NCBI RefSeq assembly: GCF_008868005.1
Contig: NZ_WAAO01000001.1
Span: 744,001 to 808,000 of the forward strand
DNA length: 64,000 nucleotides
Direction: 5' to 3'
Origin: Microbacterium algeriense
GTDB taxonomy: Bacteria > Actinomycetota > Actinomycetes > Actinomycetales > Microbacteriaceae
Shown: positions 27,532 to 40,732 of the stretch, piece by piece
Numbering within the stretch: the stretch's first letter is position 1
How the letters are laid out: the number at the start of each line of letters is the position of its first letter
Translations under genes and position numbers: made by a program
Notes under the pieces: generated by a model
The model's database searches: none
What the model was told of the DNA's origin: nothing
What the model saw: only the letters and a program-made list of their open reading frames with translations

Positions 27532-27648
27532 TGTCATGTCCGGAGTCGCGGTTGCGGTAACGCAGCGGTATCGCAGCGCCTCGTTCGTGGTCTACGGCGC
27601 CTGAGGCTCGAATCGACTACAGATTCATCCGCTCCCCGATGGGGGATT

Positions 27649-28560
27649 CTAGCCGCGAAAATCGACATTCCGTCCGCGGCCCGTGGCACAGGCTCGTTGA
27701 TACACGTGCCATGCGGCGACGCAGTCCTGGAGGGGGAGACCAGCGGCGATGTAGACGCTCGGCCACGCCGTCGGGGCGTCTTCTCTCAGCGCTGCGCTGA
27801 TGGGAAGTGATGTCTGTCGGATGATCGGACGGACGAGGGCGGGGTCGTCTGCATAGACGGTGGCCATATTCAGGAAATCAGGAGGCAGCTCCTGCTTCCC
27901 CGGCTCGTCCATTCCCAGCACCGTGACATGGTCCAAACCCTGCAGTGCCGGCGTCGACGCTACGGGACGTCGCCCCCACGTTGCCGTCACCGCTGACGAG
28001 CTGGCCCGCACGGCCGCCTCGGACGATGGTGCGACATCGGCATGCGCGGCGCCCAGAGCCTGCTGCAGGGCGAGGGCCCTGCGCTGATCTGAGTCATAGA
28101 TCGTGAAGTGTCCGCCGCGACGGCGGGAGAGAGCGAGTGCGGTTGCCGTTCCTTGCGCACCGGCACCGATGATGCCGATGGATCCGGGTGAGTGCGACGT
28201 GAGCCGGTCGTGGACGAACGCGGCGGTCAGCGCTGTTCGCTGCGCCGTCAACCAGCCGCTCTCGATCACTGCGAGGAGGGCGCCGCCGGGCAGATCGTGC
28301 AGCAGCATCAATCCCCGGATCGCCTCATCGGCGTCAGGATTCTTCGCGTGCACCTTGACCGTGTACGCGGGCACGCCGTCGGCGAGGCCCGGCATCAACA
28401 CCATCGCGGTCAATTCAGCGCTCAATCGGCTTCGAACCCGTTGAGGGGCTCCTGCGCCGACGTATTTCACGAGTGCGGACCCGAGTTGCTCGGTCAGCTG
28501 GTCGGTGTCGACGACAGCCTGCACGGTGCTGCGGTCCAGGAGCAGGGTGTCGGTCGGCAT
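27649..28560 (-). CDS. ornithine cyclodeaminase/mu-crystallin family protein
   Basis: 303 residues. NAD-binding fold with IGIIGAGAQGTATALALSRR, preceded by VPAYTVKVHAKNPDAD (substrate-side Lys) and GGALLAVIESGWLTAQRTA. Family members deaminate or reduce imino/amino acids (ornithine to proline, alanine dehydrogenase, ketimine reductase); the exact substrate cannot be set. It is the first gene inside the island. Start ATG 28560. Confidence 0.85.
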   Translation of the reverse strand: MPTDTLLLDRSTVQAVVDTDQLTEQLGSALVKYVGAGAPQRVRSRLSAELTAMVLMPGLADGVPAYTVKVHAKNPDADEAIRGLMLLHDLPGGALLAVIESGWLTAQRTALTAAFVHDRLTSHSPGSIGIIGAGAQGTATALALSRRRGGHFTIYDSDQRRALALQQALGAAHADVAPSSEAAVRASSSAVTATWGRRPVASTPALQGLDHVTVLGMDEPGKQELPPDFLNMATVYADDPALVRPIIRQTSLPISAALREDAPTAWPSVYIAAGLPLQDCVAAWHVYQRACATGRGRNVDFRG

Positions 28561-28796
28561 GAGGCCAGTACACCACGACGGGCGTGGCGTCGGCGGACTG
28601 GTGCACTGCGTTGCCGGACACGATTCTGGCTATGCCGCTCTCCGGGGGCTGGCGCGGGCGGATCGGCGGTCGGCACGGTTGCGGCACTCAGGCGACAACC
28701 GTCGCGGTCTCGGGGTGCTGGTCCGCGTCAAGTCTGACGATCTTCACCCGCTCGTCGCACCATCTGCAAGGTCGCGTAGTTGTCTAGTGTGGGGCC

Positions 28797-29228
28797 ATGA
28801 GGGAAGAACCGGATCTCATCGAGGTGGCTCGCACAAAGCTCAACCCGCATCGTGTGGGCGATCGCCTGTTCGGCGACGTCGCTGCTGCGCTCGAGACCGT
28901 CACGGGCGCGATCCACGTAGGCGTGTGCATCGATACCGGTTCCGGAACAGGCTTCTGCGCCGAGCACGCTGCGATCGCATCGATGGTTACCAGCGGCGAG
29001 TACGCAATAGCCCGCATCGTCGCTGTGTGGCGGGACGCGGAGGGGTGTCTGACAGTGCTCGCCCCGTGTGGCCGTTGCCGAGAGTTCATCAAGCAGATAG
29101 ACGAGTCGAATATCAAGACAACTGTCCTCCTCGGTCAGGGCAGAACGGCAGCGCTTCGCGATCTGCTCCCGGAATGGGAGTGGCCCGAGCCGGAGCCAGT
29201 TGCGACGCCACGCAGCGCCAGCCGGTAG
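28797..29228 (+). CDS. cytidine/blasticidin-S deaminase-like protein
   Basis: 143 residues with a zinc deaminase core: the catalytic Glu in FCAEHAAIASM (Cys-Ala-Glu instead of the more common His-Ala-Glu) and the zinc pair in LAPCGRCREFI. The CAE form is that of blasticidin S deaminase and tetrameric cytidine deaminases. Role: pyrimidine salvage, or resistance to a nucleoside antibiotic, inferred from its island location. Start ATG 28797. Confidence 0.8.
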   Translation: MREEPDLIEVARTKLNPHRVGDRLFGDVAAALETVTGAIHVGVCIDTGSGTGFCAEHAAIASMVTSGEYAIARIVAVWRDAEGCLTVLAPCGRCREFIKQIDESNIKTTVLLGQGRTAALRDLLPEWEWPEPEPVATPRSASR

Positions 29229-29270
29229 CGAGGATCGCGGCGGGATTGATACCGCGATACGGCAATATCA

Positions 29271-30524
29271 TCATGTCGCTGGTGCGGGCGTCTGCTCCGA
29301 GGCGGTGGGAAGCTCTCTCACTGCGGGGAGAGCCGAAGCGAGCACGACGAGCAGCTGTAAAGCAAATACGATCACTGCGGCTGCGATGCACCATGTCATC
29401 CCGAACGTGGCCGAGATCGCAACTCCCAGTCCGGCGCCGATGGGTCGAGCGCCGTAGGTGGAGACCACGACCAACGACGACACCCGGCCGATGAGCGATG
29501 CCGGCGTGACCGCCTGCCGCAGCGAGGTCGTGGATATCGTCCACAGGACGGGGCCCAGTCCGAAGAGGAAGAACGAGGCGAAGGCAAGAGCCGGAGACGG
29601 AATCCACAAGCTGGTGGCCATCAGCATGGCCGCGATGAACCCGCCTGCCGGTCCGAGCACCGTCATCACCCCGAACCGGAGGCGCCGTGACAGCGGCTGC
29701 GAGAGCGCCGCGCCGATGACCATGCCCGCCCCGTACGCTCCCATCGCGAGTCCCACCGTGGCGGGTGTCATCCCCAGCCAGTCCAATGCATAGACGACGA
29801 ACACCGCTTGAATCAGGAACCACCCGATGTTGAAGATCGTCGAGGTCGCGATCATCGGACGCAGGAAGCGGTGGGACAACACGTATCGCATTCCGTCTGC
29901 GGCCTCGCTCCATGCCGAGGTGCGGGGCGACGGCGCGTTTCGAGGGATGTCGAGTCGGATCAGCAGCACACCCGCAGCCGCGCAGGCGATGGTGGCGACG
30001 ACGAGCGCCGCTCCTGCGCCGGCCGCTGAGACGATGGCACCCGCGAGGACAGGACCGCTGACGAACGCGGTACTTCTTCCGAGCTCCAGCCACCGGTTGG
30101 CGTCCATCAGGCGAGCGGCATCCACGAGCCGCGGCACCGATGAGGGGACCGCGACGCTGACACCGACGGTCCCGATCGCCCCCACACAGCTGAGCGCGAG
30201 GAGCGCGCCGAAGGACAGGGCGTCGAGCGTGATCAGCACGACGATCCCGCCGAGGGTGGCCATGCGCAGCAGTTCCGACGCGATGAGGACCCGCTGCGGA
30301 GAGGTGCGATCGATGACGAGTCCGAACGGCAGCGCGAGCACGAGGAAAGGCAGCGTCTGCGCAACCTGCAGCAGCGCCGTCTCGGTGGCTCCGGCGCGCA
30401 GCATCAGCACGGCGGCGAGAGGCACGGCGACCAACGCGATCTGTTCCGCCAGCTGGGTGAGCACGCTCGACCACGCGATGCGCGTGAATCGGCTCGGGAG
30501 GGGATCGCGTCGAGGTGTCGTCAT
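29271..30524 (-). CDS. MFS transporter
   Basis: 417 residues with 12 predicted helices. The loop 2-3 motif is GLVIDRTSPQRVLI (variant of GxxxDRxGRR). It belongs to the DHA3-like efflux group (resembling macrolide or multidrug exporters) by its N-terminus (LAEQIALVAVPLAAVL). Substrate unknown. It is convergent with the deaminase gene, with about 40 bases between the stops. Confidence 0.88.
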   Translation of the reverse strand: MTTPRRDPLPSRFTRIAWSSVLTQLAEQIALVAVPLAAVLMLRAGATETALLQVAQTLPFLVLALPFGLVIDRTSPQRVLIASELLRMATLGGIVVLITLDALSFGALLALSCVGAIGTVGVSVAVPSSVPRLVDAARLMDANRWLELGRSTAFVSGPVLAGAIVSAAGAGAALVVATIACAAAGVLLIRLDIPRNAPSPRTSAWSEAADGMRYVLSHRFLRPMIATSTIFNIGWFLIQAVFVVYALDWLGMTPATVGLAMGAYGAGMVIGAALSQPLSRRLRFGVMTVLGPAGGFIAAMLMATSLWIPSPALAFASFFLFGLGPVLWTISTTSLRQAVTPASLIGRVSSLVVVSTYGARPIGAGLGVAISATFGMTWCIAAAVIVFALQLLVVLASALPAVRELPTASEQTPAPAT

Positions 30525-30627
30525 GTGTCAAGTCCACCAGCGTTGCGCGCTCGGTTCCGGCGGGAATCAGACATCGCATTCCCGCGCACGAGGACGTGGC
30601 TCCGTCGGGCGGTGAAGAACGCCGACC

Positions 30628-31665
30628 TCAGCGGCGCCGGCGTCGCGCGGGGTCGGTCAGCCAGGGATAGCTCGGCGGTGATGCGTTGTAGATCCGGTCG
30701 CCGGGGGCGACGATCTCGTCGATGCGGTCGAGGACTGCATCGTCGAGAGCGAGGTCGGAGCCGGCGAGCGCCGCGTCCAGCTGCGGCATCGTCCGGGGCC
30801 CGATGATGACCGAGGTGACCGCGCGGTGGGCGAGGGGGAATGCCACGGCGAGCTCCGGGAGCGTCACACCGATGCCCTCGGCGACCTCGACGAGTTGCTC
30901 CACGACGTCCAGCTTCCGCGCCGTCGTCGGGTCGCTCGGGTCGAACCACGCTGGGCGGATCGCAGCGCGCCCGGCGTTCTCGACCGTGACGCCCTTGCGG
31001 TATCTGCCGGTGAGGAACCCGAAGGCCAGGGGGCTCCAGGTGAGCACCCCGAGGCCGAGCCGCTCGGTGACGGGGAGGACGTCCGCTTCTGCGCCTCGAT
31101 CCAGGATGTTGTACGGCGGCTGCTCGGTACGGAAGCGCATGAGGTGCCGCTCGCGGGCGACCTGGTCTGCATGCACGATCTCGTGTGCGGGGAACGTCGA
31201 AGTCCCGAAGGTGCGGATCTTGCCGTCGCGGACGAGGTCCGTCAGGACTCCGAGCGTCTCCTCGATGTCGGTGTCCCAGTCCGGCCGGTGGACCTGGTAG
31301 AGGTCGATGTAGTCGGTGCCGAGTCGCTTCAGGCTCGCTTCGACGGCTCGGATGAGGTACCGCCGCGAGTTGCCGCTGGTGTTCGGTGCCGGGTCCTCGT
31401 CGAGCGAGAAGTGTCCCTTGGTTGCGAGCACGACCGCATCCCGACGCCCCCGCAGCGCCTTGCCGACGATGATCTCGGACTCACCTGCGGAGTACATGTC
31501 GGCCGTGTCGACGAAGTTGATCCCTCGGTCGAGGGCCGAATGGATGATGCGCACGGCATCGTCATGGTCGTCATTGCCTATCGAGCCGAACATCATCGTG
31601 CCGAGAGCGAAGGGAGAAACGGATATGCCCGTCCCCCCGAGTGGTCTGTAAGGAAGCATCGTCAC
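30628..31665 (-). CDS. aldo/keto reductase
   Basis: 345 residues, TIM barrel. The catalytic tetrad is visible: Asp and Tyr in NFVDTADMYSAGESE, Lys in VVLATKGHFS, His in DLYQVHRPDWDT. NADPH is the usual cofactor. The LGTDYIDLYQVHRPD stretch places it in the AKR11/AKR15-like group. Start ATG 31665 (MTMLPYRPLGGTG). It is on the same strand as the two hydrolases upstream. Confidence 0.92.
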   Translation of the reverse strand: MTMLPYRPLGGTGISVSPFALGTMMFGSIGNDDHDDAVRIIHSALDRGINFVDTADMYSAGESEIIVGKALRGRRDAVVLATKGHFSLDEDPAPNTSGNSRRYLIRAVEASLKRLGTDYIDLYQVHRPDWDTDIEETLGVLTDLVRDGKIRTFGTSTFPAHEIVHADQVARERHLMRFRTEQPPYNILDRGAEADVLPVTERLGLGVLTWSPLAFGFLTGRYRKGVTVENAGRAAIRPAWFDPSDPTTARKLDVVEQLVEVAEGIGVTLPELAVAFPLAHRAVTSVIIGPRTMPQLDAALAGSDLALDDAVLDRIDEIVAPGDRIYNASPPSYPWLTDPARRRRR

Positions 31666-31750
31666 TCCATGTCAGGTTCGTCCGGCGATGAGGGGTAGGA
31701 CGCCGTGATCGTCGGATGTATTCCCTCGGCGACATCGAGGGCTGCCGGCG

Positions 31751-32587
31751 TCATGGGTGAGCCCGATGCTGTTCGAGCCAGCGGGAGAGCTCAGCCGTGA
31801 GCGCTTCGGGACCGTCCAGCTGGATGAGGTGCCCGGCGTCGGCGACCCCGGCGAGGGAAGCGTTCGGGATCATCGCTTGAAGTCGGGTGGCGCGGTCGGC
31901 CGGGATCCATGCGTCCTGGACACCCCAGATGATGTGCACGGGTTCGTCGATGTCGCCGTACCGGCCTTCCACCTCGTCGGTGTAGACCTCATCGGCCTGG
32001 GCAATCTGACGGTAGAAGGCAGGCTGCCCGTCCGGTCCCGTCCACGGATGCACGAGCATGTCCAACGCCTCTTCGCTGAGTCCGCGGAAGCTCGCGCCTC
32101 GAACATACGCTTCGACGGCTCCACGGTGCACGGCAGGCGGCAGCTGGGCGAAGACCTCTGCATGCTCCTTCACGAGCTGGAAGAACGGCGAGCCCCAGGG
32201 CGAGAGCGCAACGACATCGACCAGACAGAGGGAGGCGTAGGTCATGCCGTGCAGGAGTCGTGCCCGTAGCGCGACTGCCCCACCGAAATCGTGCGCGACG
32301 ACGTGCGGGCGCCGGACGCCCCACAGCTCGCACAGGTGCGCGAACAGCTCGCCTTGGACACCGAGATCGACGGGATGATCCGCATCCTTTGAGGAGGCGC
32401 CGTACCCGGGCATGTCCCAGAGATACACCGTGAACCGCGACGAGAGGGCATCGGCGATGGGGCGCCAGAGCGCCGAAGACCACGGCGTTCCATGCAGGAA
32501 GATGAGCGGTGGACCATCGCCGAATCGATCCCACGCGACCTGTCGCCCTCGCCAGTGAACCGTGCGGTCGAGCTGATGGTGAGTCAT
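31751..32587 (-). CDS. alpha/beta hydrolase, haloalkane dehalogenase/epoxide hydrolase type
   Basis: 278 residues. Oxyanion motif IFLHGTPWSSALW (HGTPW), nucleophile elbow VVAHDFGGAVAL with Asp in place of Ser, acid in WGVQDAWIPAD, and the catalytic His in GVADAGHLIQLDGPEAL. An Asp nucleophile points to halide, ester-intermediate or epoxide chemistry. It sits next to an EHN-type epoxide hydrolase and may be part of one catabolic unit. Confidence 0.87.
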   Translation of the reverse strand: MTHHQLDRTVHWRGRQVAWDRFGDGPPLIFLHGTPWSSALWRPIADALSSRFTVYLWDMPGYGASSKDADHPVDLGVQGELFAHLCELWGVRRPHVVAHDFGGAVALRARLLHGMTYASLCLVDVVALSPWGSPFFQLVKEHAEVFAQLPPAVHRGAVEAYVRGASFRGLSEEALDMLVHPWTGPDGQPAFYRQIAQADEVYTDEVEGRYGDIDEPVHIIWGVQDAWIPADRATRLQAMIPNASLAGVADAGHLIQLDGPEALTAELSRWLEQHRAHP

Positions 32588-32690
32588 GGCTCCATGCTTT
32601 CAGAGGTCGAGAAGGGCGGATCGGGGGGCAAGGACTTTCCGGAGACGCCGCACCTCGTTCTGCTCCGGCGGGCGCCTCGGCGCTCGGTGA

Positions 32691-33848
32691 TCACCGCAGC
32701 GCTCGGAAGAACTCGCGGACATCGGTCAGCAGCGCATCGGGCTCCTCGAGTGCGGCGAAGTGGCCGCCGCGCCCCTCGACATCCGTCCAGCGCACGATGT
32801 CGTTCGCCTTCTCTTCGGCGAATCGCAAGCCCACGTCATGGGCGAAGACGATCACCGCGGTGGGCACGCCGGAACTGGTGGGCACCGCACCCCAGCCGGC
32901 GTCCTGCGCGTAACCAACGTAGGCCGCCGAGCCTCCGGTCGCGGTGAACCAGTACAGCGAAGCGTTGTCGAACAGGAATCGCTCGCCCACGATCTCGGCG
33001 ACGGGCGTCTCGGCGGGATGGGTCCACTCCTGGAACTTGTCGTGGATCCAGGCGAACTGCGCGACCGGGCTGTCCGCCGTCATGGCTCCGATCAGAGCAG
33101 GCCGCGTCGATTGGATCGCGATGTACCCGAACTCCTTCTGCATGAACTCTCCGACCCGGCGCAGGCGATTCTGCTCGAGCGGTGTCAGCGCCGCCGCCGT
33201 CTCCTCGTCGACCTGTCCGACAAACGAGCCGAGAGAGCCGTTGGCGTGCACCCCGATCACGCGGTCAGGCGCGAGGCGCCCGATCTCGGGGGCGACGCCC
33301 GCTCCCATGTCGCCGCCCTGTACCGCGAAGCGCTCGTAGCCGAGTCTCGTCATCAGCTCGAGCATCGCTGCGGCGATGTCGCTGCGCTTCCAGTCCCGGC
33401 CGACGAGCGGGGTGGAGAATCCGAAACCCGGGTGCGAAGGGATCACCACGTCGAACGCATCGGATGCGTCGCCGCCGTGAGTGGTCGGATCGGTGAGCGG
33501 TCCGATCAGCGCCTCGAACTCGAGGAAGGACCCGGGCCATCCGTGCATCAACAGCAGCGGTGTCGCGTCCGGATGCGGTGACCGCACATGCACGGCGTGG
33601 ATGTTCTGCCCGTCGATCGTCGTGACGACCTGCGGGAACGCGTTCAGGCGGGCTTCGGTCGCGCGCCAGTCGTGATCCGCCCAGCGTGCGATCAGCGTCT
33701 GCAGTTCGGCCGCGGGGATGCCGGTGCTGCGGTCGTCGATGGGAAGAGGAGACGCGAACCGCGCCCGGGTGAGCCGACTGTGAAGGTCTGAGATGGCGGA
33801 CTGGGGAATGTCGATGCGGAAGGGGCGGACCGTCTCGTTCGTGTTCAT
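32691..33848 (-). CDS. epoxide hydrolase (EHN-domain family)
   Basis: 385 residues. An N-terminal EHN domain (PFRIDIPQSAISDLHSRL) is followed by the alpha/beta hydrolase core with oxyanion HGWPGSFLEFE, nucleophile Asp in VQGGDMGAGVAP, and the catalytic His in GRGGHFAALEEPD. It opens epoxides to diols. GGAGG lies 8 bases before the ATG at 33848, fixing the start. It is divergent from the WYL regulator. Confidence 0.93.
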   Translation of the reverse strand: MNTNETVRPFRIDIPQSAISDLHSRLTRARFASPLPIDDRSTGIPAAELQTLIARWADHDWRATEARLNAFPQVVTTIDGQNIHAVHVRSPHPDATPLLLMHGWPGSFLEFEALIGPLTDPTTHGGDASDAFDVVIPSHPGFGFSTPLVGRDWKRSDIAAAMLELMTRLGYERFAVQGGDMGAGVAPEIGRLAPDRVIGVHANGSLGSFVGQVDEETAAALTPLEQNRLRRVGEFMQKEFGYIAIQSTRPALIGAMTADSPVAQFAWIHDKFQEWTHPAETPVAEIVGERFLFDNASLYWFTATGGSAAYVGYAQDAGWGAVPTSSGVPTAVIVFAHDVGLRFAEEKANDIVRWTDVEGRGGHFAALEEPDALLTDVREFFRALR

Positions 33849-33873
33849 GACTTCATCCTCCCCAGCTAAACGG

Positions 33874-33894
33874 CCATAATATGTCCTGATATGG
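33874..33894. promoter_or_regulatory. A+T-rich dyad between epoxide hydrolase and WYL regulator
   Basis: CCATA (33874-33878), 11 bases, TATGG (33890-33894). -10-like hexamers for both directions overlap it (TATTAT on the minus strand). Likely operator for the WYL protein. Confidence 0.45.
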
Positions 33895-33909
33895 AATGAG
33901 GCTGACGGC

Positions 33910-34866
33910 ATGACTCGTACCACCGGGCGCACGCTCGCTCTCCTGTCTCTCTTGCAGGTTCGACGGGAATGGAGCGGTGCGGAACTCCGTGATCGCCTCG
34001 AAGTGAGTGATCGCACGCTCCGACGTGATATCGACGACCTGCGCGAGCTCGGATATGGGATCGAGGCGACCCGCGGACGGCACGGCGGCTACCGCTTGGG
34101 ACCGGGCGCCGAGGTCCCGCCGCTGGCGCTCGCACCCGACGAGTCCGTCGCCATCGCCGTGGGGCTGCGAGCTGCCGCAGGTAGCGTGATCACCGGTATG
34201 GAGGACGCCGCGGCGCGGGCCTTGGCCAAGCTCGAGCAGTCGCTGTCGTCGGCGACTCGCCAGCAGATCAGTGAGGTTGAGCAGGCGATGGTGCCGCTCG
34301 CGGGTCAGGTGCGCTCGGACATCGATCTGACCATCGTCACAACTGCGGCCTCCGCGATCGCCGGTCGCCTGCGACTCCGCATCGACTACACGCGCCACGA
34401 TGGCGTCGAGGTGCAGCGCATCGTCGAACCGCATCGCATCGTTCACACGACGACACTCTGGTATCTGATCGCGTGGGTGCCGGAGCATGAAGCCTGGCGA
34501 ACATTGCGCGTCGACCGCATTCGCCGGCCTGTCCTGATGCGCGACGTCTTCCCCCGCCGTGACATCCCCGATGAAGCACTGCGGGAGTTCACCACACGGA
34601 GCATCACGACAGCGCCGTACCCTTACCGGGCGCGACTGAAGATGCACGCTCCCGCAGCGGAGGTTTCACGGCTCTTCGATGCCACGGTGGCCACGGTCGA
34701 AGCCCTCGGTGACGATGCCAGCACCCTTACTGCGGGGTCACGCAGTCCGGAGGAGTTCGCCCTGTACATCGGCATGAGCGGCATCGAGTTCGAGGTGCTC
34801 GAAGGAGAAGAGGTGCGTCAGGCCCTGGTCGATATGGCCCAACGGCTGCTGCGTGCCGCCGCGTAA
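33910..34866 (+). CDS. YafY-type WYL-domain regulator
   Basis: 318 residues. N-terminal winged HTH (LRDRLEVSDRTLRRDIDDLR with the wing ATRGRHGGYRLG), then a WYL domain with TTLWYLIAWVPEHEAWRTL and a C-terminal WCX-like part. WYL domains bind small ligands or nucleic acids. Divergent position indicates control of the epoxide hydrolase and perhaps the following hydrolase and reductase genes. Confidence 0.9.
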   Translation: MTRTTGRTLALLSLLQVRREWSGAELRDRLEVSDRTLRRDIDDLRELGYGIEATRGRHGGYRLGPGAEVPPLALAPDESVAIAVGLRAAAGSVITGMEDAAARALAKLEQSLSSATRQQISEVEQAMVPLAGQVRSDIDLTIVTTAASAIAGRLRLRIDYTRHDGVEVQRIVEPHRIVHTTTLWYLIAWVPEHEAWRTLRVDRIRRPVLMRDVFPRRDIPDEALREFTTRSITTAPYPYRARLKMHAPAAEVSRLFDATVATVEALGDDASTLTAGSRSPEEFALYIGMSGIEFEVLEGEEVRQALVDMAQRLLRAAA

Positions 34867-34919
34867 CAAGGCTACCGACGGCACTTGAGTCGCGGACGGG
34901 CCTGGTGCGCACGGCAGTG

Positions 34920-35120
34920 TCATATCCCGAAGAACGGTAGACACGGGGCGAGTCCCTCGACAGCGACCGTCGGGCGTTGAACCCGAAACCACGTGCCTCG
35001 ATCCAGCCGCAGCCGGTCGGAGACAAGGACGAGCCCATCTCGATCATCCCGGGAGATGCCGTCCGAGCGATGGCCGAGCCGACGCGACACTCCATGAGAA
35101 GCAGCGTTGTCCTGAAACAC
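34920..35120 (-). pseudogene. C-terminal remnant of a GNAT acetyltransferase
   Basis: Translation on the minus strand gives a GNAT-type tail: NAASHGVSRRLGHRSDG, then SDRLRLDRGTWFRVQRPTV and EGLAPCLPFFGI. This matches the last helix and strands of RimL-like proteins. The N-terminal two-thirds are missing, so this is a decayed fragment. The flanks (34867-34919 and 35121-35150) show nothing else. Confidence 0.55.
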
Positions 35121-35130
35121 CTCACCGAGG

Positions 35131-35597
35131 GGCGGATGCCGCCTACATCACGCTGATCCCCGAGAAAGAGTCCGGCCGCTCCGTGCGCAAGAGGACACCT
35201 TCCCCGGCTACCAGAACGTTCGGCTGCGGCACCACGAGCTGCAGCGCATCATCGCCGGCGACGAGCCCAGCTGGAAGGACGCGCTCTCCAGCGTGAAGGG
35301 CGTCTACGTCATCACCGACCTCAGCTGCGGGCGGCTGTACGTCGGGTCAGCATCCGGAGAGGCCAACGGCCTGTGGCAGCGCTGGTCCAGCTACGCGCAC
35401 CTGAAGAACCTCACCGGCGGCAACCGGGAGCTCGAGCAGCTGCGCCAGACCCTCGGCGACGCGCACATCGTGGAGAACTTCCAGTACTCCATCCTGGAGA
35501 TCTTCGACCCCAAAACCCGCGCTGACACGATCCTGGCGCTGAGTCGTTCTGGAAGAACGCGCTGGACAGCCGCGCCCACGGAATGAACTGGAACTGA
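35131..35597 (+). pseudogene. GIY-YIG nuclease family protein, frameshifted
   Basis: Reading from about 35191 gives EDTFPGYQNV, then GVYVITDLSCGRLYVGSASG (the GIY-YIG core is GVY...LYVG) and the expected downstream helices. At about 35540 one base appears lost: the true C-terminus ESFWKNALDSRAHGMNWN continues in the next frame to the stop at 35595. A second break lies near 35190, upstream of which AYITLIPEKESGRSVRK is in another frame. Not functional as written. Confidence 0.7.
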
Positions 35598-35630
35598 GGA
35601 TCTGGGCTCCGAGGGTGAAGCCGAGTCGAT

Positions 35631-35714
35631 CTACGGGCGCCCCACCGCGCGGAGCACTCTCGGGCGGTATTCGGACAGGCCGTAGTCGCGCAGCCAGCTG
35701 AGGCGGGAGTCGCG
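35631..35714 (-). pseudogene. short C-terminal coding remnant at the island edge
   Basis: An open stretch ending LSEYRPRVLRAVGRP then TAG at 35631, preceded by RDSRLSWLRDYG. It is cut by the right direct repeat. Composition looks coding, but the family is not recognised. Confidence 0.3.
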
Positions 35715-35737
35715 GAAACACTGGGATGCGGGGCCTT
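35715..35737 (+). repeat. right 23-bp direct repeat (putative attR)
   Basis: Exact copy of 27509-27531, here without the partner 5' arm of the tRNA-Ser terminator. It marks the right edge of the accessory region. Confidence 0.7.
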
Positions 35738-35776
35738 CGTTCTCTGCGGTCGAGGCGTTCGTCGTACCCTCGATCC

Positions 35777-36070
35777 ATGGCGGGATCGATCGACCGGCGG
35801 AGCCTTCGCTTCCATCGCGCCATGCTCGGCTTGTGCGCGGGCCTGTTCGGATACATGATCGGCTTGCTCACGAGGACCATCCAGACCGGCAGCGACTATT
35901 CGCTGCCCCAGTGGATTCTCGTCGGATCACTGGTCGTCGGTTCGGCGGCGCTGCTCACGTATCAGATCGGGCAGGTCCGGCGTCGTGGCGGTGGACGCCC
36001 ACGGGGCTCCAGACGGAGTCGACGCCTCGAAGCCTCCGCCGCCGACGGGAGCGACGATGCAGGACAGTGA
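35777..36070 (+). CDS. small two-helix membrane protein
   Basis: 97 residues starting MAGSIDRRSLRFHRAM. Two helices (about 16-33 and 46-66) are followed by an Arg/Gly-rich cytoplasmic tail. It resembles short integral proteins near islands in actinobacteria; no function known. The next small ORF overlaps its 3' end. Confidence 0.55.
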   Translation: MAGSIDRRSLRFHRAMLGLCAGLFGYMIGLLTRTIQTGSDYSLPQWILVGSLVVGSAALLTYQIGQVRRRGGGRPRGSRRSRRLEASAADGSDDAGQ

Positions 36071-36221
36071 CGACGACGAGGATCTGAGCGAAACCGAGTT
36101 GAGGGCTCGCCTCCGCAGTATCGAAGACGAACACACGATGCTCCTGTCGACGACGATCGGAGCGGTCAGCCTGGGTAACGCCGAGCTCGCTGAGCAGGCC
36201 AACGGGCTCCGAGGCGCATGA
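36057..36221 (+). CDS. small acidic hypothetical protein (54 aa)
   Basis: Starts MQDSDDDEDLSETELRARL and continues as a probable helix. It overlaps the upstream membrane-protein gene by 14 bases and ends at a strong hairpin, so the pair may be a small operon. No family recognised. An earlier in-frame ATG at 35985 would give 78 residues. Confidence 0.45.
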   Translation: MQDSDDDEDLSETELRARLRSIEDEHTMLLSTTIGAVSLGNAELAEQANGLRGA

Positions 36222-36260
36222 TGCCCTCAGGTGCGAGCGTGTCGCGTCTGAGGGCATCAT
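36218..36260. terminator. 13-bp stem terminator
   Basis: ATGATGCCCTCAG (36218-36230) pairs perfectly with 36248-36260 across 17 bases. It is shared by the small ORF pair and the convergent CPBP gene. Confidence 0.75.
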
Positions 36261-36265
36261 GACGA

Positions 36266-37201
36266 TCACAACGGCGCCGGGGTGCGTGCGGGACCGGTTC
36301 TCCGCGTGATCCACCAGACGGCGGAGGTGATCAGGACCAGTGCCGCGCTGGGGATGAGAGTGGCGATGGATCCTGCGATCTCTCCCCGGCTGTTGAGCGC
36401 GCCGCCGAGATCGACGTGCAGCGTCGTGCCGAGCACGAGGGCCGACACGTTGTAGACGACGTGGAGGACGACGGCGGTCTCGAGCCCGCCGGTGCGCCAG
36501 GTGACGATCGCCAAGGATCCGAACAGCACGAGGTAGGAGGTGAGGATGTACGGGTCGAGCGAGCCGTGGAAGAGAGAGAAGAGGACCGTCGGGATGACGA
36601 TGCCGATCACTGCGCCGAGACGCGCACCTCGCGTCCACCCGCCGATGATGCGGAACATGAACCCGCGGAAGCCGTACTCCTCGCCTGCTGCCGCGAGTGG
36701 TGTCAGCAGCATGCCGATCACGAAATAGGCGACGAGGTCGAATGTCGACCAGGGCACCTGGTCGACGGGCGCCAGGAGGAAGCCGACAGCGACGACGACG
36801 AGCAGCAACGGACCGAAGGCGAGCAGCGCTCGCCCGAGCACGCCGTATCGGAAGCGCCCGGCGACCGAGTGCAGCGACCGGAAGGGCACGCCGTAGAGCA
36901 GGCGCTGCAACAGCATGCAGTAGGGGATGAGCGCGGCGAGCGACAGTGCACCCGCAGCCTGCTGAAGAGGCGTGAAACCCGAGCGCCCCAGGATCTCGGT
37001 GTCGAGATAGCGTGCCCCGAGCAGGAGCAATTGCGCGAAGACGACCATCCCGACGACCACCAGCACGATCGCGAGGATGCCGCGGAGGATGCGGCGCTTC
37101 TCGCCGGCGTAGACGCGGTGGTACTCGACGCCAGGGGGAACTCGAGGACTGGGGACGGGTTCGTCCAGCTGGAGGAGCCAGTTCGGCGCGGTGTCGGTCA
37201 T
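36266..37201 (-). CDS. CPBP-family intramembrane metalloprotease (first)
   Basis: 311 residues with about eight helices. Active-site motifs of the CAAX-protease/bacteriocin-processing family: AAAGEEYGFRGFMFR (EExxxR), FSLFHGSLDPY and LHVVYNVSALV. Members process prenylated or secreted peptides, or give bacteriocin immunity. Two TetR-type operators lie 19-69 bases upstream of the ATG, so it belongs to the TetR regulon described here. Confidence 0.88.
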   Translation of the reverse strand: MTDTAPNWLLQLDEPVPSPRVPPGVEYHRVYAGEKRRILRGILAIVLVVVGMVVFAQLLLLGARYLDTEILGRSGFTPLQQAAGALSLAALIPYCMLLQRLLYGVPFRSLHSVAGRFRYGVLGRALLAFGPLLLVVVAVGFLLAPVDQVPWSTFDLVAYFVIGMLLTPLAAAGEEYGFRGFMFRIIGGWTRGARLGAVIGIVIPTVLFSLFHGSLDPYILTSYLVLFGSLAIVTWRTGGLETAVVLHVVYNVSALVLGTTLHVDLGGALNSRGEIAGSIATLIPSAALVLITSAVWWITRRTGPARTPAPL

Positions 37202-37219
37202 GGGTGATCCTCTTCGGTG

Positions 37220-37236
37220 CTAATACGGCGTGATAG
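37220..37236. promoter_or_regulatory. TetR-type operator site 1
   Basis: CTAATACGGCGTGATAG fits CTAnnACnnnGTnnTAG. It lies 19 bases before the CPBP start codon. Confidence 0.7.
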
Positions 37237-37253
37237 TTGCAAGAGGTATCAAA

Positions 37254-37270
37254 CTAGCACAGTGTGCTAG
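37254..37270. promoter_or_regulatory. TetR-type operator site 2
   Basis: CTAGCACAGTGTGCTAG is a perfect palindrome. Its centre is 34 bases from site 1. The 37271-37433 stretch beyond it shows no gene. Confidence 0.75.
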
Positions 37271-37433
37271 CCGGTCGTGGACCGGGGAGCGAGAGGGGAC
37301 AGAGCGCGTCGAGTACGCGATCCGCCCAGGCGATCTGCTCGCCGTGGCCTTCAGTGTCTGAATGCGATCGTGAGCCAGCTCGATGCCACGCCCGTGATGC
37401 CGACGAGCGTCGACGGACGTCTGCGAACGGCGA

Positions 37434-38369
37434 TCATGAGGTGCTGCGGTCGAGCGCGTGCAGGGTGATGGATGCGGCACTCGCCACAAGCGTGTCGTCG
37501 AAGTCTGCGTGCGGGTCGTTCCGCGACGTCAGCACCGTGATGATGATGGGGTCCTGTCCGGGGCGCGTGACGACGGCGATGTCGTTGCGGATCGGACCTG
37601 CGCCTCCCGATTTGTCGGCGACCGTCCAGCCGGCGGGCGCGCCGGAGCGGATGAGGGCGTCTCCGGTCCGGTTGTCGCTCATCCAGTCGACCAGCAGCGC
37701 CGCATCCGCAGCGGACAACGTGGAACCGTCCAGGATCCGCGTAAGCGAGGCGGTGAAGGCGGCGGCGGTCGTGGTGTCGTCGGTGCTGCCCGGTTCGATC
37801 GTGTTGAGAGTCGGCTCGTCGTTCACGACCTCCGTGGTGGCATCGCCCAGCTCGGCGAGTGCGTCGTCGAGGGCTGCGGAACCACCGATCCGGTCGACGA
37901 TGAGATTGAGAGCGGCGTTGTCGCTGACCCGGACGGCCGCTTCGGCGAGCTGCGCGTAGGTGAGGCCGTCCTCGACGTGCTGCGACGTCACGGGTGCGTG
38001 GCCGGCGGCGGCGGCTTCTTCTGCCGTCCAGTGCACGATCTCATCGCGGGCTGCGCCCGGCACGGACTGGAGGAACACTGCAGCGGCGAAGGCTTTGATG
38101 GTGGATGCGAAGCCGAAGCGGCGGTCCTCGCCGTACGAGACGGATTCGCCGGTTCCGGTGTCGACCGCCATGACGCCGACAGTCGCGTCGTACTCCTGTT
38201 CGAGAGCCGCCAGTTCGTCTGCCACGAGCTCGTCGAGGTCCGTTGTGGTCGCACGGGCCGTCGGAGATGCCGGGGCAGATTCGGCGGCAGGCGGGGGCGC
38301 GCCCACGCACCCCGCGAGCGCGAAGCCGGCGAGAAGGCAGCAGAGGCTGAAGGCCGGAGTTCGGCGCAT
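37434..38369 (-). CDS. class A beta-lactamase (lipoprotein)
   Basis: 311 residues. A lipoprotein signal (LAGFALAGC, Cys21) is followed by the serine beta-lactamase core: Ser89-x-x-Lys92 (ASTIK), Ser-Asp-Asn 149-151 (VSDNAALN), Glu185 with Asn189 (NDEPTLN) and Lys-Ser-Gly 253-255 (DKSGG). All catalytic residues are present, so hydrolysis of penicillins is expected; KSG replaces the usual KTG. ATG 38369 is used; GTG 38381 is possible. It follows tetR by 69 bases on the same strand. Confidence 0.93.
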   Translation of the reverse strand: MRRTPAFSLCCLLAGFALAGCVGAPPPAAESAPASPTARATTTDLDELVADELAALEQEYDATVGVMAVDTGTGESVSYGEDRRFGFASTIKAFAAAVFLQSVPGAARDEIVHWTAEEAAAAGHAPVTSQHVEDGLTYAQLAEAAVRVSDNAALNLIVDRIGGSAALDDALAELGDATTEVVNDEPTLNTIEPGSTDDTTTAAAFTASLTRILDGSTLSAADAALLVDWMSDNRTGDALIRSGAPAGWTVADKSGGAGPIRNDIAVVTRPGQDPIIITVLTSRNDPHADFDDTLVASAASITLHALDRSTS

Positions 38370-38438
38370 GTGGTCACGCACCGAGGAACGCTCCGGTGGG
38401 CGCGAGGACGAGGTCTCGCACGTTCGTGAGCAGCGAGG

Positions 38439-39050
38439 TCACGCGGCGGGCCACTCGCTCAAGACCGCGTGGACCGCGAGCCGCAGACTCGTCGTCTCGG
38501 CCTCGATGCCCACGGCGTCGGAAGGCAGCGCGCGTTCGGTCATGAGCCCCGCCAGCACGGTCGAGAGGAACCGTGCTCGCTCCTCGACTCGACCGGCGGG
38601 GACCGCGCCCTCGTCGATCAAGACGGTCAGCCATTGCGCGATCCGATGTCGCCCCATGCGGTCCAGCGCGATGTAGGTGGCTGCCTCGTCTTCGGACGGA
38701 GCCGTGGCCACGTACGCCTCGTAGAGCGCCCCCCACTGCCTCCGTGCGCTTTCACCCACGCCGACTTGACGGAGGATGAGCTGCAAGCACGCGATGAGTC
38801 GCTCCTCCGCCGTCAGAGAGCGGTCGTTGATCGGATCATCGGGGAGCTCCAGGTCGTACATCGCGGCCACCACTGTCTCGATGAGCTCCCGCTGTGTTGG
38901 GAAGAAGTGGCGTAGCGACCCCGTGCTCACCTGAGCGCGGGCGGCCACTGCTCTCACGCTCAGGCGTGCGGTGGGGTTCTCGCCCAGCATGGTCGCCGCG
39001 GCGATGAGGATCTTCTCCCGCGTTCCCGGTTCCTTCGACGCTTCGTCCAT
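38439..39050 (-). CDS. TetR-family regulator
   Basis: 203 residues. The N-terminal HTH is LSVRAVAARAQVSTGSLRHF; an all-helical ligand domain follows. GAGG lies 5 bases before the ATG at 39050, preferred over ATG 39068. Operator site 3 overlaps its likely -10 (TTATAG), so it should repress itself. Its sites also flank the divergent membrane-protein/CPBP genes and the first CPBP gene. Confidence 0.9.
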   Translation of the reverse strand: MDEASKEPGTREKILIAAATMLGENPTARLSVRAVAARAQVSTGSLRHFFPTQRELIETVVAAMYDLELPDDPINDRSLTAEERLIACLQLILRQVGVGESARRQWGALYEAYVATAPSEDEAATYIALDRMGRHRIAQWLTVLIDEGAVPAGRVEERARFLSTVLAGLMTERALPSDAVGIEAETTSLRLAVHAVLSEWPAA

Positions 39051-39072
39051 TTCTCCCTCATGAGCCATCCGT

Positions 39073-39089
39073 CTATAACAGTGTGCTAG
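39073..39089. promoter_or_regulatory. TetR-type operator site 3
   Basis: CTATAACAGTGTGCTAG fits the shared consensus. It overlaps a minus-strand -10-like TTATAG upstream of tetR. Confidence 0.7.
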
Positions 39090-39105
39090 CTTAGCCCGTC
39101 GTCGG

Positions 39106-39122
39106 CTATCACGCTGTATTAG
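39106..39122. promoter_or_regulatory. TetR-type operator site 4
   Basis: CTATCACGCTGTATTAG fits the shared consensus. It overlaps a plus-strand TATTAGAT just before the membrane-protein gene. Centre spacing to site 3 is 33 bases. Confidence 0.7.
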
Positions 39123-39137
39123 ATTATGGAGGGCGAG

Positions 39138-39782
39138 ATGATGGCGGGAAACAACTGGCGGAACCGTCGCGTCCGTGTCGGTTCCGGCGAACCGCTGCGC
39201 CGCTATCGCTGGTGGCAGATGTTCGGCCGGTCTCTCCGATCGATCACGCTGCGCTCTGACGCCGGCACGATGTCGACGTACACGATCGACGTCCGTCATG
39301 CCGGCGATATGACCGACGGCGAGATTCGTGCGCGTCTCTACGTCGACGGAGCTCTGCAGTCCTACGCGAAGATGCCCACACGCTTCGCCGTGCCTGGCGG
39401 GCACATCGAGGTGGCGATCACCGGGTTCGGGCTCAAGCGGTGCCACTATGTGCGGGCAGACGGCACCGAGCAGCAGCTGTCGCCCGATCCTCGATCCGCC
39501 GAAGGGCGTCGCGCTCGTTTGCACGAGCGGCATCCCGGAGTGAGCCGCGTGATCGGCCTCGTCTCCATCGCGTTCGTCGTGGTGGGCCTCAGTGTCGAGG
39601 TCCCTCAGATCATCGAGGCCCTCTCGAAGATCCCCCTGATCGCCGACTCGATCGGCACTTTCACCTCTCCCCTCCGACTCCCGCTCGAGCTCAATCTGCT
39701 CGTCGGTCTCGCCGCTGTCCTCGGCAGCACGGAACGAGCCCTGCGAATGCGTTCGAGCTGGATCGACGAGCTCGCCAGCTGA
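39138..39782 (+). CDS. membrane protein of unknown function in the TetR locus
   Basis: 214 residues. A soluble N-terminal beta-rich domain of about 125 residues (TMSTYTIDVRHAGDMTDGEI, then a LYVDGALQSYAKMPTRF strand) precedes two helices near residues 134-155 and 178-200. GGAGG lies 5 bases before ATG 39138. It is followed after 20 bases by the second CPBP gene. No family recognised. It may be a partner or substrate of the CPBP protease. Confidence 0.7.
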   Translation: MMAGNNWRNRRVRVGSGEPLRRYRWWQMFGRSLRSITLRSDAGTMSTYTIDVRHAGDMTDGEIRARLYVDGALQSYAKMPTRFAVPGGHIEVAITGFGLKRCHYVRADGTEQQLSPDPRSAEGRRARLHERHPGVSRVIGLVSIAFVVVGLSVEVPQIIEALSKIPLIADSIGTFTSPLRLPLELNLLVGLAAVLGSTERALRMRSSWIDELAS

Positions 39783-39802
39783 CCTCTCCGAAAGGGATGA
39801 CC

Positions 39803-40732
39803 ATGCATCAGATCGGCCCTGCCACGACACCGGTACCGCATGTCGGCGACAGCCCCGGCGTGGGGAGAGGAGGCCGCCCCTTCGGAGTGCACTTCCGGAT
39901 GGCGGGGTGGAAAGCACTCATCGTGATCGTGGCGCTGCCGGCGACGCTCCTGGTCACTCAGCTCGGGCTGTACCTGCTCGCGGGACTCGTCGAAAGCGGG
40001 GACCCGTTCGCACCCGAGCTGACGCCCCTGAAGCTCCTGGCGGCGAACATCAGCACCGGCCTCACCGCGTTGTTGGCGCTCGCCCTCGTCGGGTGGTTCG
40101 CGAAGGTGCCGTGGCGCGTCGTCTTCAGCGCGCCGCGCAGCTTCGACCGCCGTCGTCTGGTGACGTACTTCCTGGGCTCGCTCGCGATCGTCGGCCTGGT
40201 CATGGGGGCAGTCGGGCTGACAGCTGCGGAACAGGTCGGCTGGACCGGGCTCTCGATCACCGGCACGACGGCAGGCCTGCTCATCGTCATGCTCCTCTCG
40301 ACGCCGATGCAGACCGTCGGTGAGGAGATCATGTTCCGTGGCGTGCTTCTGCCCGCTGCCGGGTCATGGTTCCGGTCTGCGAAGCCGGCCTTCCTTGCGG
40401 GCCTCATTCTCTCGAGTGCGATGTTCGCCCTCCTGCACGGTTCCAGCGACCCGCTGCTGTTCGCGTACTACCTCTTCTTCTCCGTGTGCACGGCGGTGAT
40501 GGGACTGCTCACCCGCGGACTCGAAGCAGCGATCGCCTTTCATACGGCGAACAACCTCCTGACGACGACACTCAACGCGGTCTTGAGCGGGGGCGGTGCT
40601 GTTGCTGTCGATCGCTCAGAGGGGTCCACCGGCGGGTTCGCCCTTCTCCTGCCCGCAGCCGGGAGCCTCGCAGCGCTCGTCATGGTCGGGGTTCGGGAGC
40701 GTTCGCGCCACCGGGCCGGGACGCACCGGTAG
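39803..40732 (+). CDS. CPBP-family intramembrane metalloprotease (second)
   Basis: 309 residues, about eight helices. Motifs: QTVGEEIMFRGVLLPAAG (EExxxR), FALLHGSSDPLL and AIAFHTANNLL. AAAGGG precedes ATG 39803 by 6 bases; ATG 39797 is an alternative. Moderate similarity to the first CPBP by eye, mainly in the motifs. It is in an operon with the preceding membrane protein. Confidence 0.87.
   Translation: MHQIGPATTPVPHVGDSPGVGRGGRPFGVHFRMAGWKALIVIVALPATLLVTQLGLYLLAGLVESGDPFAPELTPLKLLAANISTGLTALLALALVGWFAKVPWRVVFSAPRSFDRRRLVTYFLGSLAIVGLVMGAVGLTAAEQVGWTGLSITGTTAGLLIVMLLSTPMQTVGEEIMFRGVLLPAAGSWFRSAKPAFLAGLILSSAMFALLHGSSDPLLFAYYLFFSVCTAVMGLLTRGLEAAIAFHTANNLLTTTLNAVLSGGGAVAVDRSEGSTGGFALLLPAAGSLAALVMVGVRERSRHRAGTHR

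Follow-up and report, generated by a model that had tools for sequence, protein, structure and literature searches.

QacR and TtgR are local repressors of the TetR/AcrR family, inducible beta-lactamases are controlled by BlaI/BlaR1 and by AmpR, and WhiB7 governs the multi-drug regulon of mycobacteria. Two further TetR/AcrR repressors are of relevance to the locus considered here, a five-gene region in a stretch of 64,000 nucleotides (the window) of the genome of the soil-type bacterium Microbacterium algeriense, which encodes a TetR-family regulator, a class A beta-lactamase (bla), an uncharacterised membrane protein (MEM) and two membrane proteins of the Rce1-like/CPBP family (CPBP-1 and CPBP-2). 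CssR of Corynebacterium glutamicum has a 25-bp operator, TAA(G)TGN13CA(G)TTA, and ABC genes as payload (PMC8176726), and QsdR of Rhodococcus has a lactonase as payload (PMC6262395). The locus is like them in having a TetR_N protein, a divergent gene and palindromic sites in the shared interval, with release by a small molecule expected, and unlike them in its paired 17-bp sites and its content of MEM, CPBP and bla genes, both operator and payload being other in CssR and QsdR.

The locus has in common with the BlaI/BlaR1 and AmpR systems a beta-lactamase that is predicted to be inducible, but bla is here flanked by tetR and a CPBP gene and would belong to a larger regulon consisting mostly of membrane proteins. 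As with WhiB7, a single regulator would preside over several unrelated protective genes, and a Tap-related pump is encoded in one relative; unlike WhiB7, the regulator is a TetR with local operators, in a mobile cassette. CPBP/Abi/Rce1-like proteins share the family match and the motifs with the pair in the window, whereas the genomic setting differs. An earlier reading of the window from its letters and open reading frames, referred to here as the sequence-only reading, knew of no named system with this content; among the matches listed from the openly licensed literature likewise none is named with this TetR, operator or gene set, and six operator strings have not been found in any paper there. 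The circuit, a TetR with divergent targets, is of a known kind; as far as searched, neither the gene content nor the core membrane protein has been described.

We propose that the TetR is a repressor with local operators which runs a modular protective cassette, spread by horizontal transfer and probably directed against natural products, and we place the probability of this reading at about 0.55. The features of the locus are the following.

36266..37201, minus strand: CPBP-1, Rce1-like/CPBP membrane protein of 311 residues; PF02517; motifs EEYGFR, FSLFH and HVVYN
37220..37236, no strand: putative inner operator before CPBP-1, reading CTATCACGCCGTATTAG on the reverse strand, 18 bases ahead of the start codon
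37254..37270, no strand: putative outer operator before CPBP-1, a 17-bp palindrome that is perfect except for the central base
37272..37361, minus strand: remnant of a flavin adenine dinucleotide (FAD)-linked oxidoreductase, 30 codons; blastx E 1.5e-11, 70% identity to residues 379-408 of a gene of a related cassette
37434..38381, minus strand: bla, class A beta-lactamase with lipobox; NCBIfam bla_class_A; motifs STIK, SDN, EPTLN and KSG
38439..39050, minus strand: tetR, TetR-family regulator of 203 residues; PF00440; ribosome site; alignment of 21 sequences
39073..39089, no strand: putative operator nearest tetR, 22 bases ahead of its start codon
39106..39122, no strand: putative operator nearest MEM, 15 bases ahead of its start codon
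39138..39782, plus strand: MEM, uncharacterised membrane protein without Pfam or NCBIfam family; AlphaFold2 model
39797..40732, plus strand: CPBP-2, second and distant Rce1-like/CPBP protein directly behind MEM; PF02517; motifs EEIMFR, FALLH and HTANN

Putative operators and their conservation

Exact matches to the pattern CTAnnACnnnGTnnTAG number four in the window, at the positions listed, and none of 100 dinucleotide shuffles of the window reached this number (mean 0.01 matches). The whole assembly (3,633,280 bases in nine contigs), which was scanned for the motif, contains no further exact copy; a random recurrence elsewhere in the chromosome, which the sequence-only reading had named as counting against its proposal, is not seen. 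With one mismatch allowed, 15 more places appear genome-wide; CTACGAC or its complement is present in ten of them, and none form pairs. The reversed pattern, a crude control, also occurs four times in the genome, so that the number of sites alone is unremarkable and it is their placing that is remarkable. The four positions and the distances of 34 bases (CPBP-1 interval) and 33 bases (tetR/MEM interval) between sites had been given by the same reading and are borne out, as is the gene content: two CPBP proteins, a TetR_N protein, a beta-lactamase of class A and a further membrane protein without Pfam family.

The two intervals have a common build, an outer site followed by 16-17 bases, an inner site, 15-18 bases and the start codon. 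Read in the same orientation, the inner sites, CTATCACGCCGTATTAG and CTATCACGCTGTATTAG, differ at a single base (consensus CTATCACGCyGTATTAG), and the CPBP-1 and MEM intervals therefore look like related promoters. The operator nearest tetR would, by its position, cover the core promoter of tetR and bla.

The regulator matches the TetR_N helix-turn-helix family (PF00440) at 32.4 bits against a cut-off of 24 and is, judged by its sequence, an ordinary TetR_N protein. By inspection, its most likely start is the ATG at 39050, which follows a ribosome site reading GAGGGAG. The DNA-reading helix, VSTGSLRHFFPTQREL, is nearly constant in the alignment of 21 sequences, and the nearest solved structure to the profile made from them is found at E 2.6e-9.

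TetR relatives were collected by protein similarity alone. At E<=1e-20 a TetR is encoded in 16 of 198 Microbacterium genomes, and at E<=1e-50 the cassette is sporadic, with six of these 198, 10 of 396 genomes in a sample of the order and 10 of 394 in a sample of the class; the source genome and G465 are in both of the wider samples (genomes and loci carry G and L numbers). To these were added 14 further named loci from other actinobacterial records. The final set comprises 38 loci (the window and groups of 14, 6 and 17) whose TetRs, compared by tblastn, are 47-100% identical to that of the window. Besides Microbacterium, relatives include those of Agromyces, Arthrobacter, Rhodococcus, Pseudonocardiaceae and Nocardioides and of three plasmids. 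L060 and L149, copies of L047 and L058, and the TetR paralogues L066-L072 (about 40%) and L073 (33%) were left out. A site pair was defined as two sites with at most three mismatches together, 12-40 bases apart, and was scored within 220 bp upstream of tetR, while gene content was counted within 6.5 kb of tetR. The control set consists of 24 loci (L105-L129 minus L127, which re-covers L062; 241,024 bases) in which MEM or CPBP-1 has a relative and a TetR of this branch is absent.

The palindromic operator that a TetR/AcrR-family repressor is expected to have within its own upstream interval is present in the window, and 36 of the 38 loci, across several orders, have a site pair upstream of tetR; conservation of the sites in relatives, on which the sequence-only reading had staked its proposal, is thus found. 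The two remaining loci carry a pair elsewhere: in Rhodococcus L051, tetR is separated from the pair by bla, and in L147 the pair is situated between a PapA-like and an FAD-oxidoreductase gene. No pair has been found in the 220 bp downstream of tetR (0/38) or in any of the 24 control loci. When the upstream stretches were resampled with a first-order Markov model, a pair arose in 1 of 7,600, and 55 of 18,204 random windows, with the tetR-upstream stretch left out, hold one.

A full listing over the 418,885 bases of the 38 loci gives seven pairs outside the tetR-upstream stretch, before CPBP-1 (window, L045, L046 and L062), in the gap separating MEM from bla (L051) and in that separating PapA-like from FAD-oxidoreductase genes (L059 and L147). 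Wherever CPBP-1 stands apart from the MEM/tetR interval it has its own pair (4/4 loci), and no second pair has been seen where it adjoins MEM or tetR; in L062 a MEM remnant sits between the second pair and CPBP-1. Taken with the controls, the listing indicates that in this sample a pair is a mark of the genes in question and of nothing else. The operator code would hence predict members of the regulon from DNA alone, every pair in the 419 kb around the relatives fronting one of these genes.

All paired sites have the same AC...GT core. Among the 36 pairs the spacing is 33 bases in 12 loci, 27, 30, 32 and 34 in three loci each, 13 in three, and 24-35 in the others, which gives two classes, 13 bases (3 loci) and 24-35 bases (33 loci). 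The spacing of about three helical turns noted earlier for the window therefore describes most close relatives only, and fixed helical phasing as a general rule is ruled out. Two overlapping sites that share CTAG, 13 bases apart, are also seen beside a distant TetR (L073:5397-6032, 33%, in G184) and in L066, L069, L148, L150 and L153.

In the genus survey, the exact site occurs in all six genomes with a close TetR (E<=1e-50) and in 17 of the 192 others (Fisher p 1.3e-6), so that the motif tracks tetR as the sequence-only reading had expected. In four of these 17 (G011, G129, G174 and G184) the site lies beside a distant TetR of 33-42% identity, so that the operator code is common to sister TetR branches. 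In one such branch (about 40%), with like operators, the genes opposite tetR encode GPP34 and a small membrane protein at six of seven loci (L066-L072). The GPP34-facing loci (L066-L070 and L072, for example L069:5793-7109) appear to represent another uncharacterised regulon with the same code, and the small membrane protein is weakly similar to small multidrug export proteins (16.8 bits against a Pfam cut-off of 30.7).

The beta-lactamase, membrane proteins and accessory genes

The product of bla belongs to class A by the NCBIfam model bla_class_A (NF033103, 239.3 bits against a cut-off of 200) and by all four motifs of the class (SxxK, SDN, ExxLN and K(T/S)G), which are intact; the lipobox, LAGC, was recognised by inspection. 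Its start is either GTG 38381 or ATG 38369, and the distance of 69 bases from tetR to bla in the sequence-only reading holds with the latter. Beside bla neither blaI nor blaR1 is present, the neighbours being tetR and a CPBP gene, and the rest of the genome was not searched for these two genes. The source genome has no second bla relative at E<=1e-20.

The bla survey covered 18 TetR-bearing genomes (the order-sample, class-sample and L054 genomes lie outside it). At E<=1e-20 there are 16 relatives of bla across 13 of these genomes, and eight of the 16 are situated inside the TetR locus, in three arrangements: bla lies behind tetR (window, L045, L046 and L050, and with a GDSL-type gene between them in L059 and L062), ahead of tetR as first gene behind the operators (Rhodococcus L051), or at the end of CPBP1-MEM-bla (L058). 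The window, L045 and L046 are near relatives, which reduces the number of independent linkage events. From these counts, chance placement of a one- or two-copy bla in TetR loci appears very unlikely. Among the 38 loci, ten have bla within 6.5 kb, eight of them in a plausible operon, and L140 and L155 are those where it is not evidently in one. A class A beta-lactamase would in this manner be tied to a TetR switch and not to BlaI/BlaR or AmpR.

Gene counts near tetR in the 38 loci are 30 for MEM, 19 for CPBP-1, five for a SpoIIM-like protein (so labelled from a sub-threshold Pfam match of 22.4 bits, cut-off 26.9) and three each for PapA-like, GDSL-type and TAP-like alpha/beta hydrolase genes; a fourth PapA-like gene lies 7 kb off in L062. 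Genes of DUF418 type adjoin MEM or tetR in L148, L150 and L153 (Pfam was run on L148 and L153 only). The most complete relative is G022 (L062), in the order PapA-like, CPBP-1, site pair, MFS pump, MerR, SpoIIM-like, FAD oxidoreductase, MEM, site pair, tetR, small protein, GDSL-type and bla. The nearest models to the pump are an H+ antiporter and the Tap multidrug efflux protein, both matched below their cut-offs. Compared with these gene contents, the window holds a reduced version of the cassette.

MEM has no Pfam family, no NCBIfam family and no sequence match in the PDB. By inspection, its most likely start is at 39138 behind a GGAGG, with an in-frame ATG also at 39126. An AlphaFold2 model built from 14 sequences (mean predicted local distance difference test score, pLDDT, 78.7) has eight strands followed by two long helices among shorter ones, and MEM is accordingly predicted to consist of an N-terminal beta-sandwich and two long C-terminal helices. 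The top fold match to the beta part, among those listed, is the FAIM N-domain (3mx7), a weak one (Z 6.3, root-mean-square deviation 3.1, 78 residues) with a score in the range where merely a common arrangement may be shared.

Among relatives of MEM with about 50% identity at other Microbacterium loci, of which 17 were inspected, are four beside a SpoIIM-like protein, four beside a small membrane protein and two beside a GDSL-type protein, and by this gene content MEM has a recurrent partner set. Among the loci without this TetR, MEM relatives lie beside a SpoIIM-like protein in L105 and L107-L109, and beside a relative of the small membrane protein of the sister branch in L113, L118, L119 and L121. 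Since MEM is the most constant member while its polytopic partner varies (CPBP, SpoIIM-like or DUF418), we would guess from gene content that it is a membrane-side effector or adaptor, the rest being exchangeable. The locus places this unannotated protein family in a testable context.

The two CPBP proteins match PF02517 at 49.1 and 57.5 bits (cut-off 22.4), and the family motifs EExxxR, FxxxH and HxxxN are all intact in both. Every NCBIfam CPBP match, including the named subfamilies MroQ, myxosortase and ABC_perm_CPBP, lies far below its curated cut-off, and a specific role is therefore not assignable. They share 32% identity over 170 residues, which indicates that they are not recent duplicates. 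CPBP-2 starts at ATG 39797, 14 bases past the stop codon of MEM. A relative of CPBP-2 at E<=1e-40 is encoded in one of 197 other Microbacterium genomes (49%), at a different place, and the two CPBP proteins as a conserved pair are thus rejected.

Proposed mechanism and rival explanations

In the proposed mechanism a TetR dimer would sit on each 17-mer and shut three promoters, those of tetR-bla, of the divergent MEM-CPBP-2 and of CPBP-1. As the sites are 15-22 bases ahead of the start codons, they would overlap or abut the core promoters, and the simplest action would be occlusion of RNA polymerase. Release of the TetR would follow from its binding of a small molecule that reaches the cell, with a toxic natural product as the most likely candidate, and the five genes would come on together; the secreted, lipid-anchored beta-lactamase would then destroy part of the threat, and MEM and the CPBP proteins would act in the membrane. 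Elsewhere the same switch may drive other chemical-altering enzymes, which would amount to a mobile, modular protective regulon.

The sites and how well they are conserved, the way they track TetR and CPBP-1, the recurrent linkage of bla and the presence on plasmids are all read from the sequences. Binding and repression by the TetR at the putative operators is very probable. That the five genes form one regulon is likely; the sequence-only reading had supposed that all five answer to one signal, and one TetR with four operators over one regulon is supported, with CPBP-2 as a rare extra outside the core. A protective or detoxifying purpose, suggested by the payload, has in our estimation an even chance, and a natural product as inducer slightly less than that. 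Tentatively, and with somewhat less assurance again, a TetR subfamily with a shared code of the CTAGyACrsyGTrcTAG-like kind may run a class-wide, plasmid-borne, mix-and-match protective regulon in the Actinomycetes, with MEM and exchangeable polytopic partners (CPBP, SpoIIM-like, DUF418) as core, and with genes for beta-lactamase, esterase, acyltransferase, oxidoreductase and hydrolase as a payload that is gained and lost. Should the protective reading be true, the locus represents an unrecognised inducible resistance cassette moving between actinobacteria.

Several observations weigh against a protective cassette under TetR control. A scan for sigma-70-like promoters by consensus found none against 0.2 expected by shuffling, a result that is uninformative in a high-GC genome and that leaves the overlap of operators and promoters only inferred. 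In the window bla has no operator of its own, its control depends on co-transcription with tetR, and a terminator or an extra promoter may lie between the two. In the 6.5 kb tested, 28 of the 38 TetR loci are without bla, and for this reason, together with its not evidently operonic position in L140 and L155, beta-lactams are unlikely as the general inducer. We know of no role in resistance for the commonest members, MEM and CPBP-1. The GDSL-type proteins score above the Pfam cut-off and yet have no literal GDS string, and the PapA-like proteins have SHQxxDG-type motifs in place of HHxxxD, two of the three tested being below the Pfam cut-offs; with such atypical motifs the enzyme activity of both is unsure. 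The sister branch facing GPP34 fits upkeep of lipids or envelope at least as well.

The last point leads to the explanation by envelope-lipid homeostasis, in which the TetR would sense a lipid, acyl or isoprenoid compound made by the cell itself and adjust the membrane make-up, with MEM, CPBP, SpoIIM-like, DUF418, PapA-like and GDSL-type proteins remodelling lipids or membrane proteins and bla as a passenger profiting from the same stress. The most frequent members are indeed membrane proteins, the accessory PapA-like and GDSL-type families act by name on acyl groups, and in the sister TetR branch, which has similar sites, the facing genes encode the small membrane protein and GPP34, a lipid-binding family in eukaryotes. 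However, a cassette that is sporadic, plasmid-borne and decaying in sister lineages is unlike housekeeping, and the beta-lactamase recurs in three arrangements; we regard the explanation as rather unlikely. The sequence-only reading had suggested a cell-envelope or peptide-processing response. Its envelope part is retained as this rival, while peptide processing is not favoured, because enzymes that might modify foreign compounds come and go with the operators, namely a beta-lactamase, an esterase of GDSL type, an FAD oxidoreductase, an acyltransferase of PapA-like type and an alpha/beta hydrolase, once together with an MFS pump. A related possibility is immunity to bacteriocins or peptides, with the CPBP proteins as Abi-type immunity proteins or peptide processors and a TetR responsive to the peptide or to its producer. 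Roles of CPBP proteins in immunity and processing are known, and both proteins here keep all motifs. TetRs, however, normally bind small molecules, and CPBP-1 is absent from several other loci in which SpoIIM-like or DUF418 proteins are present. No peptide-precursor or peptide-modifying gene has been recognised beside tetR, a weak argument as the neighbours are partly annotated, and it is weakened by an ABC-type ATPase frame found by inspection about 3 kb from tetR in L148. Such immunity is considered very improbable.

It may also be that the TetR controls itself, MEM and CPBP-1 alone, bla and CPBP-2 being chance neighbours. The operators are directly ahead of these three genes only and CPBP-2 is nearly unique to this lineage, but half of the surveyed bla relatives (8/16, in 18 genomes) are in the TetR locus, bla is the first gene behind the operators in L051 and on one plasmid, and CPBP-2 starts 14 bases behind MEM, which makes this explanation improbable. 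That the palindromes are due to chance or serve another regulator draws on the fact that binding of the TetR to them is a prediction from sequence. Against it, the four copies in the genome are all in one locus, pairs stand in 36 of 38 upstream stretches and in none of 24 controls, and all seven further pairs front genes of the same set; by the genome, shuffle, upstream and control-locus counts it has been rejected, with a negligible residual chance. The reading of a TetR-run protective cassette is the one we prefer.

Spread and decay of the cassette

The Agromyces TetR is nested with starred support among the Microbacterium TetRs in the tree, and the cassette is present on plasmids. A plasmid of Prescottella equi carries a TetR of 63% identity, a site pair, MEM and bla, and bla is there, as in Rhodococcus L051, first behind the operators; a PapA-like stretch is in pieces on this plasmid. 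A plasmid of Streptomyces anulatus has a TetR of 48%, a site pair, MEM and an alpha/beta hydrolase, and a more distant one, of Rhodococcus qingshengii, a TetR of 45%, a site pair and an alpha/beta hydrolase opposite tetR. The GC (guanine plus cytosine) content of the locus in the window is not distinctive.

Homology at the DNA level to M. oxydans (L045) extends over 36275-39784, from CPBP-1 to the end of MEM, and so stops close to the limits of the cassette; a further 63 bases match within CPBP-2. Of the two flanks of the M. oxydans locus, one has its counterpart 9 kb away in the window and the second has none there. The region 27538-36275 is an insertion or rearrangement relative to M. oxydans, whose cassette abuts DNA that is about 9 kb off in the window.

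CPBP-2 remnants have been identified in two other cassettes, a piece of the 5' end in L045 and a piece of the 3' end in L059, and an intact gene is seen in the window only; by these pieces CPBP-2 was probably present in the ancestor of these cassettes. The CPBP-1 gene of the Agromyces cassette (L046:6791-7716) is split over two frames, owing to sequencing error or decay. In the window, the FAD-oxidoreductase remnant sits between bla and the site pair of CPBP-1. A short GIY-YIG-like frame of 97 residues (35293-35586; Pfam score 21 bits, cut-off 22.6), located between a WYL regulator and the cassette, is possibly the remnant of a mobile or restriction gene.

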